This document shows, piece by piece, positions 1-4,433 of a stretch of 64,000 nt of DNA (positions are counted from its first letter, which is position 1; each line of letters begins with the position of its first letter). The notes beneath the pieces were generated by a model that ran no database searches, had not been told where the DNA came from, and was given only the letters and a program-made list of their open reading frames with translations. The position numbers and the translations under genes are program-made. The DNA is from Aurantimonas manganoxydans SI85-9A1 (lineage in GTDB: Bacteria > Pseudomonadota > Alphaproteobacteria > Rhizobiales > Rhizobiaceae), in contig NZ_CH672387.1 in NCBI RefSeq assembly GCF_000153465.1, positions 3,220,932 through 3,284,931 of the forward strand, given 5' to 3'.

Positions 1-1363
1 CGCCACGGATGGTCAGGACGCCCTCGGCCACATGCATGCCGTGGATGTCTTCCGGATAGGTCTCGTTGCGCACGAGGATCACCGGCCGTTCCTCGTTGGC
101 CAGTTCCTGGGCGCGCTCGGAGGTGAAGACGATCTCGCCCGTCGCCGCGCCCGGCGAGGCAGGCATGCCGCGGCCCAGTACGACGAGGTCGGAGGTCCGC
201 TCGAAGGTCGGATGCAGCAATTCGTCGAGCGAATTCGGATCGATGCGCAGGATCGCCTCGGCCTCGTCGATCAGCCCCTCGTCGACGAACTGCACGGCGA
301 TGCGGATCGCCTCCCCCGCCGTGCGCCGCGCCACCCGCGACTGCATCAGGAAGAGTTCGCCGTCGCCGACCATGAAGTCGACCTCGACGACATCGCCGAC
401 ATGCGCCTCGATGCGGCGCACATGCTCGGTCAGTTCGGCCATGTCAGCGGGAAAGCGCTCGGCGTCGCCTGCCGACAGGGTTCCCAGATCGAGCACCGGC
501 GGCTTCTCGCCGATCTCGCGCGCCCGCGGCGCCACCAGCCCGAATTCGCCCGACAAGCGGGATTCGCCGGTGGTTAGGTCGCGGGAGACGGCGCGCCCGG
601 TGCCGGAATTGTGGTCGTGCTCGTTGAAGATCATCGCATGGGCGGTGATCGCCAGGCCGGCATTTTCGGGAATGCCCTGGATCAGCCGGTGCGACGTCGC
701 CAGCGGGCTGCGCCAGGTCGCATAGGCGGCCTCGATGACGGCGGAGAGCTGTTCGAGCGGGGTCTGCGGCACGACGGCGCCGATCTCGGCGTCGAGATAG
801 GTCTGGTAGCGCGCGATCAGCGCGCGCCAGCCGGCCCGGTCGCCCGGTTCCTCGGTCCAGCCCGCCTCGGCGGCTTCCGCGTCGGCGATGTCCTCGAACT
901 CGGCCGGATCGACCGCCAGCACCAGATGGGCATAGCTTTCGATGAAGCGGCGATAGCTGCGATAGGCGAAGGCCGGGTCGTCCAGCTCGGCCGCGAGAAT
1001 ATCCACCGTGCGGTCGTTGAGGCCGACATCGAGCACCGATTCGGCCAGGCCCGGCATCTGGGCGCGGGCGCTGGTGCGCACGGCCAGGAGCAGCGGGCGC
1101 GTGTCGCCGTCGAAGCCCCGGCCGGTGACGCCCTCGAGCCATTCGATCGCCATGCGCAGATCGGCGCGCAGTTCCTGGGGCAGGCCGTCGCCGCCGCTCT
1201 GCACCTCGCGCCAGACCGAAGTGGCGAGGGTGAAGCCTGGCGGCACCGGCACGTCCAGCGACGCCAGCAGCGCCAGATTGGCACCCTTCAGCCCCAGGGC
1301 CTCGGACGCGTCGGCCGTGCGATCGGCCGCTCCGCGCCGGAATGTGAATATCCGTTTGGGCAT
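1..1363 (-). CDS. Divergent pyruvate phosphate dikinase (PPDK)-like enzyme, C-terminal part cut off by window edge
   Basis: PPDK interconverts pyruvate, ATP and phosphate with PEP, AMP and pyrophosphate. The visible 454 residues begin MPKRIFTF and contain PPDK landmarks in order: LKGANL then VPPGFTL (about 25-45), AVRTSARAQMPG (about 93-104), SYRRFIESY (about 137), FLMQSR (about 355), LLHPTF (about 395), GMPASPGAATG and PEDIHGMH. The frame leaves the window at GVLTIRG, just before the expected phospho-histidine motif TSHAA, so length to that point matches full-length PPDK. Several otherwise conserved stretches are altered: GGKG reads GLKG, TRNPSTGE reads SRDLTTGE, and the NAQGED segment is absent. 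This may be a paralogue with changed activity rather than housekeeping PpdK. The ATG start is supported by the usual PPDK N-terminus but has no strong ribosome binding site. Confidence 0.85.
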   Translation of the reverse strand, partial: MPKRIFTFRRGAADRTADASEALGLKGANLALLASLDVPVPPGFTLATSVWREVQSGGDGLPQELRADLRMAIEWLEGVTGRGFDGDTRPLLLAVRTSARAQMPGLAESVLDVGLNDRTVDILAAELDDPAFAYRSYRRFIESYAHLVLAVDPAEFEDIADAEAAEAGWTEEPGDRAGWRALIARYQTYLDAEIGAVVPQTPLEQLSAVIEAAYATWRSPLATSHRLIQGIPENAGLAITAHAMIFNEHDHNSGTGRAVSRDLTTGESRLSGEFGLVAPRAREIGEKPPVLDLGTLSAGDAERFPADMAELTEHVRRIEAHVGDVVEVDFMVGDGELFLMQSRVARRTAGEAIRIAVQFVDEGLIDEAEAILRIDPNSLDELLHPTFERTSDLVVLGRGMPASPGAATGEIVFTSERAQELANEERPVILVRNETYPEDIHGMHVAEGVLTIRG

Positions 1364-1659: not shown

Positions 1660-2433
1660 CTACATGCGGGCGCGGATGGCGGCCGCCATCTGCTCGGCGC
1701 TGAGCGCGCCGGAGAACTTGTCGCCATTGATGAAGAAGGTCGGGGTCGCGTTGACGCCGAATTCGTTCTGACCCTTCTGCTGGATCTCGACGATCTTCTC
1801 CTGCATCTCCTTGTCATTCAGGCAGCTGGTGAATTCGTCCTGGCTCATGCCGGCGAGCTTGGCAATCTTCAGGAGCGCGGCCGAGGCGTTGTCGGCGCGG
1901 GCCCAGTCATCCTGCTGGCTGAACAGCACATCGATCATCGCCGTGCGCTTGGCGTCGTCGCCGGTGCAGCGGGCCAGCATGAAGCCGGCGAGCGCGCGCG
2001 GATCGAAGGGGAATTCGCGGATGATCAGCTTGGCCTTGCCGGTGTCCAGGAAGTCCGTCTTGATCTGCGGATAGGAATTCTCGTGGAAGTCGGCGCAGTG
2101 GCTGCAGGTCATCGACGCGTATTCGACGATCGTCACCGGCGCATCGGCATCGCCGATCACCACGTCGGGCAGCGGGCCCTCGGCCATCAGGTCGGCGACG
2201 TCCACGGAACCGCTGGATTCGGGCGCCTCGACGGCCGGCGTCGCAGGCGTTGCCGGCGCGGTGTCGGCCTGGGCCATCAGCACGGCATCGGAATTGGGCA
2301 GAACGGCGCTGGCCGCGGTGCTCTCCGCCTCGTCGGTGCAGCCGGCGATCGCGAGCAGCCCGGCTCCGGCGAGGAAGGCGGCAATTCGGGGCGCCTTCGC
2401 CAGGCGGGTACGGGCGGTCAGCGGATGTTTCAT
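1660..2433 (-). CDS. DsbA-family thiol:disulfide oxidoreductase, predicted lipoprotein
   Basis: The 257-residue protein is a periplasmic thioredoxin-fold oxidase or isomerase of the DsbA/BdbD type. The N-terminus carries a lipoprotein signal (hydrophobic stretch about 17-30, lipobox IAGC with Cys32), so it is probably membrane-tethered rather than soluble. A Pro/Ala-rich linker (about 50-80) leads to the thioredoxin-like domain with active site CSHC (110-113) and the cis-proline loop ATPTF (Pro231). The alpha-helical insertion typical of DsbA lies between them. The gene follows the DciA-like gene on the same strand and ends at a strong intrinsic terminator. The exact substrate is not deducible. 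Its partner could be DsbB elsewhere in the genome. Confidence 0.9.
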   Translation of the reverse strand: MKHPLTARTRLAKAPRIAAFLAGAGLLAIAGCTDEAESTAASAVLPNSDAVLMAQADTAPATPATPAVEAPESSGSVDVADLMAEGPLPDVVIGDADAPVTIVEYASMTCSHCADFHENSYPQIKTDFLDTGKAKLIIREFPFDPRALAGFMLARCTGDDAKRTAMIDVLFSQQDDWARADNASAALLKIAKLAGMSQDEFTSCLNDKEMQEKIVEIQQKGQNEFGVNATPTFFINGDKFSGALSAEQMAAAIRARM

Positions 2434-2556: not shown

Positions 2557-3075
2557 TCAGGCTTTCGAGCGGCGCAGGGTGGTCTCGGCGAAGTCGCGCA
2601 ACGCCTTCTGCAGCCGGGGATCCTCGATCCGGGCGACCATGTCGGCGACGCGCTGATGCTCGACGGGGGCAAGATCGCGCAGCTTCGGCTTGCGGTCCGG
2701 TCGCTGCTGGTTGACGGCTTTTTGAACGATCTTGATCCGCGCCACGGCGGCAAAGCCGAAGAAGGCGTTGACCCGCGCCAGCAATTCGCCGGTCTGGTGC
2801 TGCAGCCGCAGCGCCGCCGCCGCCTCGCAGGCGATGACCAGCGTCGCCGGTTCGAAGGGGTCGCCCTCGTCGCGCCGGGCCGGCCAGACCAGCTTTTCCG
2901 GCCGTGTCAGATCGCGCAGGCCCGGCCCGGTGATCTCGCCCCAGGCGGCGACCAGCCCGGTGGTCATGCCGGCCTTGCGGCGCAGGATCGGGTCCATCAG
3001 GCCGCCGACGAGATCGGCGACGGGTTGCGGGGTGCCGGTGCGGCGCCTGGCGCGCGGGTCATAAGGCGATGTCAC
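2557..3075 (-). CDS. DUF721 / DciA-like protein
   Basis: The 172-residue protein belongs to the DUF721 family, which includes DciA, the replicative helicase (DnaB) operator of many bacteria lacking DnaC. The DUF721 core runs from about residue 15 (LVGGLMDPILRRKAG) to about 110, with the usual short beta hairpin and KH-like segment (LVIACEAAAALRLQHQ). The C-terminal part is basic and variable (QRPDRKPKLRDL). I chose the GTG at 3075 because an AAGG ribosome binding site lies 7 bases upstream. A longer frame starting at TTG 3123 lacks one. In Hyphomicrobiales this gene commonly sits beside mutY and dsbA as here. Function as a helicase loader is inferred from family only. Confidence 0.8.
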   Translation of the reverse strand: MTSPYDPRARRRTGTPQPVADLVGGLMDPILRRKAGMTTGLVAAWGEITGPGLRDLTRPEKLVWPARRDEGDPFEPATLVIACEAAAALRLQHQTGELLARVNAFFGFAAVARIKIVQKAVNQQRPDRKPKLRDLAPVEHQRVADMVARIEDPRLQKALRDFAETTLRRSKA

Positions 3076-3326
3076 GGGACGACCTTTCCGGATCGATGTC
3101 TGCGGGGATCGAATATGCGGCAACAGGGCGTGTTGCCGGCAGGGGCCCAGCGCCGAACGGATAGCATGGAACGGCGTGGACGTCGCCAGAGTGACCAGCG
3201 CCCGGCTTGCGACAGACGGCCGGCTCGCATTCGCCGCGCCGGGCCGCTACATCGCGCAGAGCGTGGCCTCTAGGGGCCCGCCGCCGATCTTCCGGCCCGC
3301 CATCCAGACAGAGCGTCAATCTGCCC

Positions 3327-4433
3327 ATGCCCGCCGATCTCCGTCCGTTCGCGGATCATCTCCTTGCCTGGTACGACCGCCATGCGCGGGTGCTGCCCTG
3401 GCGCGTCTCGCCGCAGGACCGGGCGCGCGGCATCCGGCCGGCGCCCTACCGGGTCTGGCTGTCGGAGATCATGCTGCAGCAAACGACGGTGGCGGCGGTG
3501 AAGGCGTATTTCGCCAAGTTCACGGCGCGCTGGCCGCATGTCGCCGATCTCGCCGCCGCGCCGCAGCCGGCGGTTCTCGGCGAATGGGCCGGCCTTGGCT
3601 ATTACGCCCGCGCCCGCAATCTGCATGCCTGCGCGATCCGCGTCAGCGAGGAGTTCGGCGGCGCCTTTCCCCAGACGGCGGCTGCGCTGCGGACCCTCCC
3701 GGGCATCGGCGACTATACCTCCGCGGCAATCGCCGCGATCGCCTTCGACGAGCCGGCGGCCGTCGTGGACGGCAATGTCGAGCGAGTCGTCACCCGGCTG
3801 TTTTCCATCGAAACGCCCCTGCCCCAGGCCCGCAAGGACATCCGGCTGCGCACCGCGGAGCTGACGCCGCAGGAGCGGCCCGGCGATTTCGCCCAGGCGA
3901 TGATGGATCTCGGCGCGACCATCTGCACGCCGAAACGGCCGAGCTGCATGGTCTGCCCGGTACGGCCCATGTGCCGCGCCAGCGCCGAGGGCCGTGCGGA
4001 AGACTTTCCGGTGAAGAAGCCGAAGGCGGCGGTCCCCGAGCGCAAGGGCGCGGCCTTCGTTGCGACGCGGCCGGCGGACGGCGCGGTCTGGCTGCGCCGA
4101 CGCGACGCGCCTGGCATGCTGCAGGGCATGAGCGAACCACCGGGCACCGGCTGGCACGCCAAGGCCGACGGCGCGACCGGCGCGAATGCCGCGCCGTTTG
4201 CCGCCGACTGGCGCTTCTGCGGCACGGTGGCGCACAGCTTCACCCATTTCCGGCTCGAACTCGAGGTCTACCGGGCCGAACTCGCCGGCGATCCGCCGGC
4301 CGAGGGCTGGTGGTGCCCGCCGGAGGCGCGCGGCGCCGAAGCCTTGCCGACCCTCATGCAGAAGGTGCTGGTACGCGCCGAGGCCAGCCCGCCGGAACCC
4401 GCCGCCACACCGAAACGGAGACTGAACCGATGA
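3327..4433 (+). CDS. mutY: A/G-specific adenine DNA glycosylase MutY
   Basis: MutY removes adenine mispaired with 8-oxoguanine, preventing G:C to T:A changes. The 368-residue protein has the helix-hairpin-helix motif LPGIGDY (124-130), catalytic Glu47 (SEIMLQQ) and catalytic Asp148 (VVDGNVERV). The iron-sulfur cluster loop has spacing C-x6-C-x2-C-x5-C (Cys200, 207, 210, 216). The C-terminal NUDIX-like domain that recognises 8-oxoG includes VAHSFTHFRLEL (about 295). The ATG at 3327 gives the family-standard N-terminus; the open frame extends upstream to 3207 but that part has no family character. The stop overlaps the next gene by 4 bases (ATGA), so the two are probably translationally coupled. 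Confidence 0.95.
   Translation: MPADLRPFADHLLAWYDRHARVLPWRVSPQDRARGIRPAPYRVWLSEIMLQQTTVAAVKAYFAKFTARWPHVADLAAAPQPAVLGEWAGLGYYARARNLHACAIRVSEEFGGAFPQTAAALRTLPGIGDYTSAAIAAIAFDEPAAVVDGNVERVVTRLFSIETPLPQARKDIRLRTAELTPQERPGDFAQAMMDLGATICTPKRPSCMVCPVRPMCRASAEGRAEDFPVKKPKAAVPERKGAAFVATRPADGAVWLRRRDAPGMLQGMSEPPGTGWHAKADGATGANAAPFAADWRFCGTVAHSFTHFRLELEVYRAELAGDPPAEGWWCPPEARGAEALPTLMQKVLVRAEASPPEPAATPKRRLNR

Follow-up and report, generated by a model that had tools for sequence, protein, structure and literature searches.

The only pyruvate, phosphate dikinase copy of Aurantimonas and its close relatives: a kept PEP half, an eroded ATP half and a suggested change of job

VadK is, according to the accessible part of its description, a histidine kinase derived from pyruvate, phosphate dikinase (PPDK) that autophosphorylates with ATP, and the same text mentions two mycobacteria with a full-length PPDK lacking critical kinase motifs (PMC13400623). 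HpeH, the histidine and substrate half of a related dikinase, is described in the accessible part of its source as exchanging phosphate between substrates without an ATP-grasp partner (PMC12167813). For PPDK in general, a review states in its accessible part that a homologue of the PPDK regulatory kinase (PDRP) is found in every PPDK-bearing bacterium (PMC8100219).

Here, we describe the only PPDK copy of Aurantimonas and its close relatives, in which the PEP half is kept and the ATP half is eroded; comparison of the sequences suggests that this protein now has a different job. In the literature searched on degenerate or moonlighting PPDK, PDRP and Aurantimonas, where subscription journals were mostly outside the scope, such proteins appeared in no title or abstract opening among the matches listed.

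Gene, architecture and chromosomal position

The whole stretch of DNA analysed, 64,000 nucleotides long, is called the window here, and judging by its named relatives it belongs to the order Rhizobiales. The PPDK-like gene starts with an ATG at position 1363 on the minus strand, and its frame exits the left edge of the window. The features discussed are as follows (window positions, unless a contig is named):

1..1363, minus: 5' part of the PPDK-like gene, codons 1-454 (open reading frame)
1283..1294, minus: GLKG, residues 24-27 (canonical GGKG)
491..550, minus: GEFGLVAPRAREIGEKPPVL, residues 272-291, in place of the GEFLxNAQGEDVVAGIRTP hairpin; E279 and D280 lost
377..385, minus: E327-V-D329 (canonical D321-x-E323)
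335..346, minus: MQSR, residues 340-343; Q335 and R337 retained
1..187, minus: first part of the swivelling phosphohistidine domain, which begins near residue 393
1660..2433, minus: DsbA-type thioredoxin gene, upstream, conserved-neighbourhood anchor
2557..3123, minus: DciA (DUF721) gene, conserved-neighbourhood anchor
3321..4433, plus: MutY-type DNA glycosylase gene (HhH-GPD and NUDIX_4), conserved-neighbourhood anchor
G000:C1:3219634-3222294: entire PPDK-like gene, 887 codons (887 aa)
G000:C1:3219634-3220931: remainder of the PPDK-like gene, left of the window

The window ends at residue 454 and thus includes neither the T-S-H motif (residues 457-459) nor the PEP/pyruvate domain, so that the phosphohistidine H459 was out of sight for an earlier, sequence-only reading of this DNA. 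That reading had described a protein resembling PPDK along its visible length, which agrees with the PPDK architecture of the complete 887-aa product. A profile search gave the domain order of PPDK (PPDK_N, mobile histidine domain, PEP domain), with the PPDK_N match at 60.9 bits in three stretches versus 198.8 for a canonical relative. The protein passes the NCBI PPDK equivalog TIGR01828 (1029 bits; cut-off 843) and fails the profiles of PTS enzyme I (TIGR01417, 129 bits versus 341.7) and PEP synthase (TIGR01418, 148 bits versus 740), and its best-scoring solved relatives are PPDKs, that of C. symbiosum first. Nor does it have the VadK layout of ATP-binding and histidine domains with no PEP half, since its PEP domain is present with the tested residues intact.

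The AlphaFold model of a close relative, the A. aggregata protein (mean pLDDT 84.3, pTM 0.64), has the full PPDK fold, and aligned with PPDK 2r82 over the full length (Z 56.5, 857 aligned, rmsd 6.1) and with enzyme I 2hwg over the histidine and PEP domains (Z 30.0, 403 aligned, rmsd 4.1). Its pLDDT falls below 50 in the C-terminal tail and at residues 279-287 and 297-300, which cover and follow the NAQGED position. The second protein of the window's genome with a PEP-utilizer domain, encoded elsewhere by a 778-codon frame, is taken as PtsP from its size and domains.

MutY, DciA (DUF721) and DsbA genes lie upstream in all 13 loci of the Aurantimonas clade whose neighbours were read (G122, G124 and G137 are outside this count), and likewise in Rhizobium altiplani; DUF1499 and MBL genes follow downstream in 8 of the 13, their order being inverted in G023. 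The PPDK-like gene is a vertically inherited ppdK orthologue, and not a paralogue, because no second PPDK_N protein was found in the genome and the gene sits at the ppdK position of its relatives.

Rhizobium altiplani has an SMC gene between DsbA and ppdK that is absent from the clade loci; the place it occupies in canonical rhizobia corresponds to about 1364-1659 of the window, between the DsbA and PPDK-like genes. No SMC protein above the TIGR02168 cut-off was found in the 15 clade genomes, and one was present in 5/5 controls. The relative G048, which lacks PDRP, also has no SMC gene between DsbA and ppdK, and its PPDK (L257) has canonical ATP-site residues. L257 possibly represents the state preceding decay of the ATP half; in the protein tree it does not group with the window's clade.

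Unequal erosion of the two halves

Site residues are numbered after C. symbiosum PPDK, whose PEP/pyruvate site we take to consist of R561, R617, E745, N768, D769 and C831, and Arg95 and Glu324 of the Flaveria enzyme presumably correspond to R92 and E323. For the nucleotide/Pi site, we assume the nine residues K22, R92, R135, E279, D280, D321, E323, Q335 and R337 (Ye et al. 2001). Four of the nine are changed in the window's protein, and two to five across the 15 sampled clade genomes.

The sequence-only reading had pointed to GLKG in place of GGKG, a missing NAQGED segment and E-x-D before MQSR, and all three were confirmed. L25 stands for canonical G21, which is lost, and K26 for K22, which is kept; the hairpin stretch reads GEFGLVAPRAREIGEKPPV, NAQGED and the hairpin that follows it being replaced; and D321-x-E323 has become E-x-D, with Q335 and R337 unchanged relative to C. 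symbiosum PPDK. The histidine motif is intact (T457, S458, H459), R561, R617, E745, N768, D769 and C831 are canonical, and H834 is Q.

These changes belong to a clade of 16 complete proteins, from the window's own genome, 14 sampled relatives and one Jiella, whose named members are Aurantimonas (including A. aggregata and Aurantimonas sp. VKM B-3413) and Jiella sp. LLJ827; a partial Rhizobiaceae bin carries a 17th, incomplete protein of the same type. Among the matches listed, 15 of the 151 genomes of the family sample (own included) carry a clade protein, at 70-100% identity, and the next complete PPDK stands at 57%. The complete members form one clade in the tree of the histidine and PEP part (support 1.0), and eight of the clade genomes group together in a neighbouring-gene tree (support 98).

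None of the 17 members has G21 or an intact E279-D280 pair, all have E in place of D321, and the NAQGED hairpin is replaced in the 16 complete ones; position 323 is D, E or T, changed in 10/16 and still E in 6/16. All 16 complete members retain K22, R92, R135 and Q335, and 15 of them R337. The TSH motif (T453, S454, H455) is kept in 17/17, and H455, R561, R617, E745, N768, D769 and C831 in 16/16. Chance or sequencing error behind the residue changes is ruled out by their clade-wide conservation.

That PPDK normally keeps the altered residues, as the sequence-only reading had held, is borne out by G21, E279, D280, D321 and E323, which are kept in 47/47 other PPDKs and in the C. symbiosum reference. 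Two of the changes are less telling than it assumed, since changed G21 and D321E also occur where the remaining ATP site is kept or PDRP is present: D321E by itself in the PDRP-positive genome G267, S21 in G109 with the rest of the ATP site kept, and N21 with E321 in four f12 proteins that keep the other ATP-site residues. Moreover, mutating E279 or D280 in C. symbiosum PPDK reportedly impairs the enzyme only in part. In rifampin phosphotransferase, according to the accessible part of the report, K22A abolishes activity and E297A, at a Mg2+ ligand, does not (PMC4844700), so that acidic changes alone need not be fatal. For Flaveria PPDK, the accessible part of the source assigns Arg95 and Glu324 a direct role in ATP binding (PMC5507339).

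With 48 canonical PPDKs as the yardstick of invariance, only 34 of 97 ATP-grasp sites are retained by every one of the 16 complete members, and 22 differ from the canonical residue throughout; joint retention is 33 of 39 sites for the histidine domain and 93 of 100 for the PEP domain. The ATP-grasp, histidine and PEP parts have mean identities of 0.64, 0.75 and 0.82 inside the clade, compared with 0.80, 0.81 and 0.82 among 15 canonical family members. On these counts, conservation of the PEP/pyruvate domain is shown to match that in true PPDK, the phosphohistidine carrier comes close to it, and the ATP-grasp half is shown to have lost residues that never vary in true PPDK. Purifying selection acts on both halves (dN/dS below 0.3): five clade pairs gave 0.07-0.28 for the N-terminal and 0.03-0.20 for the C-terminal half, ratios that are rough because dS is partly high (0.34-1.39).

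PDRP and ATP-site changes across the order

PDRP (PF03618) was absent in 15/15 clade genomes and present in 5/5 canonical controls; in the family sample, 116 of 151 genomes have it. We read 190 proteins, 150 rows from 147 genomes of the family and 40 rows from an order sample of 150 genomes, the latter being partial or low-scoring proteins, full-length proteins of PDRP-less genomes and the lowest-scoring complete proteins of PDRP-positive ones. Both halves were present in 177, and the other 13 rows, in which one half was missing (contig-end fragments and ATP-half-only proteins), were left out of the cross-table. No PPDK sequence came from 4/151 family genomes (G005, G006, G044 and G111). Outside the count are five PDRP-less genomes of the order sample: G152 and G292, whose PPDK is divided between contigs, and G212, G231 and G251, for which no full-length row was among those listed.

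A protein was considered degenerate if two or more of the nine ATP-site residues were changed. Of the complete proteins, 34 of 46 in PDRP-less genomes reached this threshold, versus none of 131 in genomes with PDRP; these figures count species and not independent events. In the family sample alone the numbers were 20/29 versus 0/112; among the order rows, 36 of 40 with both halves, 14 changed and 3 unchanged proteins were PDRP-less and 0/19 PDRP-positive ones were changed. Some PDRP-less genomes are incomplete bins, and the absence of PDRP is therefore less sure there. Loss of PDRP does not force decay, because 12 of the 46 proteins stay below the threshold. The seven PEP-site residues are unchanged in 173 of the 177 complete proteins. 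The window's protein falls among PPDK orthologues and is the only PPDK found in its genome, which the sequence-only reading would have counted against its own proposal had such substitutions been common or the positions variable in active enzymes; in intact enzymes, however, variation at these positions is not the rule (0/131).

Apart from the window's clade, the other 19 of the 34 changed proteins come from the genera g13 (2) and g15 (2), from G095, and from the families f6 (4), f43 (3), f51 (3) and f9, f23, f48 and f44 (1 each). In genus g13, K22, Q335 and R337 are also lost and the PEP half is kept. The f6 proteins, encoded by frames of roughly 770-840 codons, show an N domain of reduced size; L258, the only one scanned, has no PPDK_N match, and the PPDK profile matches it only from position 321. 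With K22, R92, R135 and Q335 remaining, the window's clade is by its residues among the milder cases of ATP-half loss, which leaves room for an altered but living nucleotide site. The shares of near-invariant sites kept in the ATP-grasp, histidine and PEP parts, with 129 canonical sequences as the yardstick, are:

window's clade: 0.53, 0.88, 0.97
f6: 0.21, 0.80, 0.86
f43: 0.36, 0.85, 0.91
g13: 0.37, 0.95, 0.95
f51: 0.65, 0.88, 0.97
G095: 0.41, 0.92, 0.94
G158: 0.33, 0.71, 0.82
G197: 0.70, 0.82, 0.89
G252: 0.61, 0.88, 0.96
g15: 0.73, 0.98, 0.98
G297: 0.80, 0.94, 0.98
control, 12 PDRP-less PPDKs below the two-change threshold: 0.93, 0.97, 0.94
control, seven divergent PDRP-positive PPDKs: 0.97, 0.98, 0.98

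On a tree of 87 rows, the state changes at least five times on the best tree, and there are three independent pairs on well-supported branches and five on all branches. Random pairings had PDRP in the same direction in 2.4 of 3 and in the opposite direction in none; the sign test of the PDRP link is not significant because the independent pairs are too few. A single clade of all 27 degenerate rows, a set that includes long branches and mild cases, was rejected (p-AU 0.0011). When the long and mild rows were omitted, a single clade of the five main lineages was not rejected (p 0.36), and neither was the grouping of D with f51 (p 0.45) or of D with g13, which form one side of a protein-tree branch (support 67; p 0.39 for the neighbouring gene). 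That ATP-half loss arose more than once is claimed only weakly, because a single origin was not rejected for the five main lineages. A recurring kind of 'PEP-half-only' PPDK in Rhizobiales, in which the ATP half decays after loss of the ADP-dependent PDRP and the PEP-to-phosphohistidine half stays largely intact, is possible rather than probable.

Several other proteins in the samples also depart from PPDK. C831 is T or S in L118 (G099), L125 (G109) and L126 (G002), PPDKs of PDRP-less genomes, and unchanged in all other complete proteins among the 177 read. Eight proteins of about 545-575 codons consist of ATP-grasp and histidine parts only (L272-L275 of f12 and L234-L237 of G132, G034, G072 and G082); they resemble VadK, and seven of them are in PDRP-positive genomes. 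L271 (G172) is the reverse case: its ATP-site residues are intact and its PEP site is eroded, and its genome gave two PDRP hits.

Possible role and relation to known systems

A changed role of the PPDK-like protein is well supported by the comparison of residues. The sequence-only reading had proposed a paralogue with a changed nucleotide requirement or role; the role change stands as far as sequence can tell, and the paralogue does not, given the single PPDK_N protein and the ppdK position. Our preferred reading, which we consider reasonably likely, is an orthologue that is no longer a full dikinase and would serve as a phosphohistidine switch or donor set by PEP and pyruvate. Judging from the conserved residues, partial reaction 3 (PEP + His = pyruvate + His-P) would still run, and partial reactions 1 and 2 (ATP + Pi to His-P) would be crippled or gone. 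PEP would charge the histidine and pyruvate discharge it, so that the phosphorylation state would track the PEP/pyruvate ratio, and with a crippled ATP/Pi half the histidine phosphate would have no exit by the old path. The phosphorylation state may be read out by phosphoryl transfer to a putative acceptor, in the manner of PTS enzyme I, or conformationally, via the remodelled N-terminal domain. HpeH, the histidine domain of Bacillus subtilis PykA and VadK each offer a precedent for some part of this scheme. This domain is probably an output or docking part in the window's clade, since its predicted fold is kept and it is under purifying selection. Gluconeogenic PEP would be supplied by PEP carboxykinase, which is present in 20/20 genomes tested, so that PEP is obtainable without PPDK.

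A working dikinase with a remodelled nucleotide site, near the idea of the sequence-only reading, seems rather unlikely to us. Such an enzyme would bind a nucleotide or another polyphosphate via K22, R92, R135, Q335 and R337; its acidic pair is swapped, and its nucleotide or metal may differ from that of PPDK. It would fit the retention of the basic and Gln residues in 15 or 16 of 16 clade members, the fixed E321, the E or D at 323 in 15/16 and the purifying selection on the N domain, as well as the occurrence of D321E in the PDRP-positive genome G267. It would also fit nine ATP-grasp sites at which 16/16 members share one non-canonical residue (S90A, N108D, D131R, Q240H, G245N, N246E, V255R, D321E and T325M), some of which presumably adjoin pocket-lining positions. 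However, the sequence that stands in for the NAQGED hairpin is variable and in part of low confidence, no PDRP was found in the genome, and some extreme relatives (genus g13) also lose K22, Q335 and R337 yet keep the PEP half. Furthermore, 14 presumed pocket sites are not clearly better conserved in the clade than other canonical-invariant N-domain sites (8/14 fixed versus 55/126; mean 0.81 versus 0.82).

The faster evolution of the N-terminal half, the loss of the regulator and of key residues, and a PEP carboxykinase that could make PPDK dispensable could also be signs of a functionless enzyme in early decay, bound to become a pseudogene. This is quite improbable considering that all 16 complete reading frames are open, that dN/dS is low in five pairs (C-terminal half 0.03-0.20, N-terminal half 0.07-0.28) and that the tested PEP-site residues are invariant across the clade. 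A paralogue next to a canonical ppdK deserves hardly any credit: the 4.33-Mb genome (completeness 100%) gave a single PPDK_N hit and no second, canonical ppdK, 14 of the 15 clade genomes have no other PPDK_N protein at E 0.001, and gene order indicates orthology. The exception is G027, with a second PPDK_N protein of 390 bits in an 836-codon frame. For the window's own genome this explanation is refuted, as far as the assembly is complete.

If the reading as a PEP-driven phosphohistidine protein is true, an enzyme of central metabolism does something selectable for which PEP and its histidine suffice, and PPDK would have a hidden second, ATP-independent function under its own selection, which is directly testable. 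The equivalog TIGR01828 names several half-eroded proteins 'pyruvate, phosphate dikinase' (cut-off 843; P0001 1029, L119 954, L122 868, with L263 and L258 below), and metabolic models may therefore assign a reaction that is probably not run. The PDRP link would offer a cheap genomic marker of which PPDKs to doubt.

With PPDK (EC 2.7.9.1), the window's protein shares the three domains, the swivelling TSH-histidine domain, the PEP/pyruvate residues and the chromosomal position of ppdK, whereas its ATP/Pi site is eroded (NAQGED, G21, D321 and often E323) and no PDRP was found in its genome. Enzyme I has an HPr-binding part and no ATP-grasp domain. The fold of the histidine and PEP domains is shared with enzyme I and PtsP (2hwg, Z 30.0), and PEP-driven histidine phosphorylation is probably common to enzyme I and the window's protein, but the PTS_I profile score is far under the cut-off (129 versus 341.7). 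VadK (Rv1127c), as far as the accessible part of its description goes, likewise descends from PPDK with one half lost and the histidine carrier retained, but in reverse, having ATP-binding and histidine domains only and no pyruvate/PEP domain (PMC13400623). In the PEPut domain of PykA from Bacillus subtilis, the accessible text describes a PPDK-type TSH-histidine domain as a regulatory switch, which is fused to pyruvate kinase, unlike the window's protein (PMC9009071). HpeHI and rifampin phosphotransferase, according to the accessible parts of their sources, share the modular swivel-histidine phosphotransfer and differ in having another substrate domain and an active ATP-grasp part (PMC12167813, PMC4844700).
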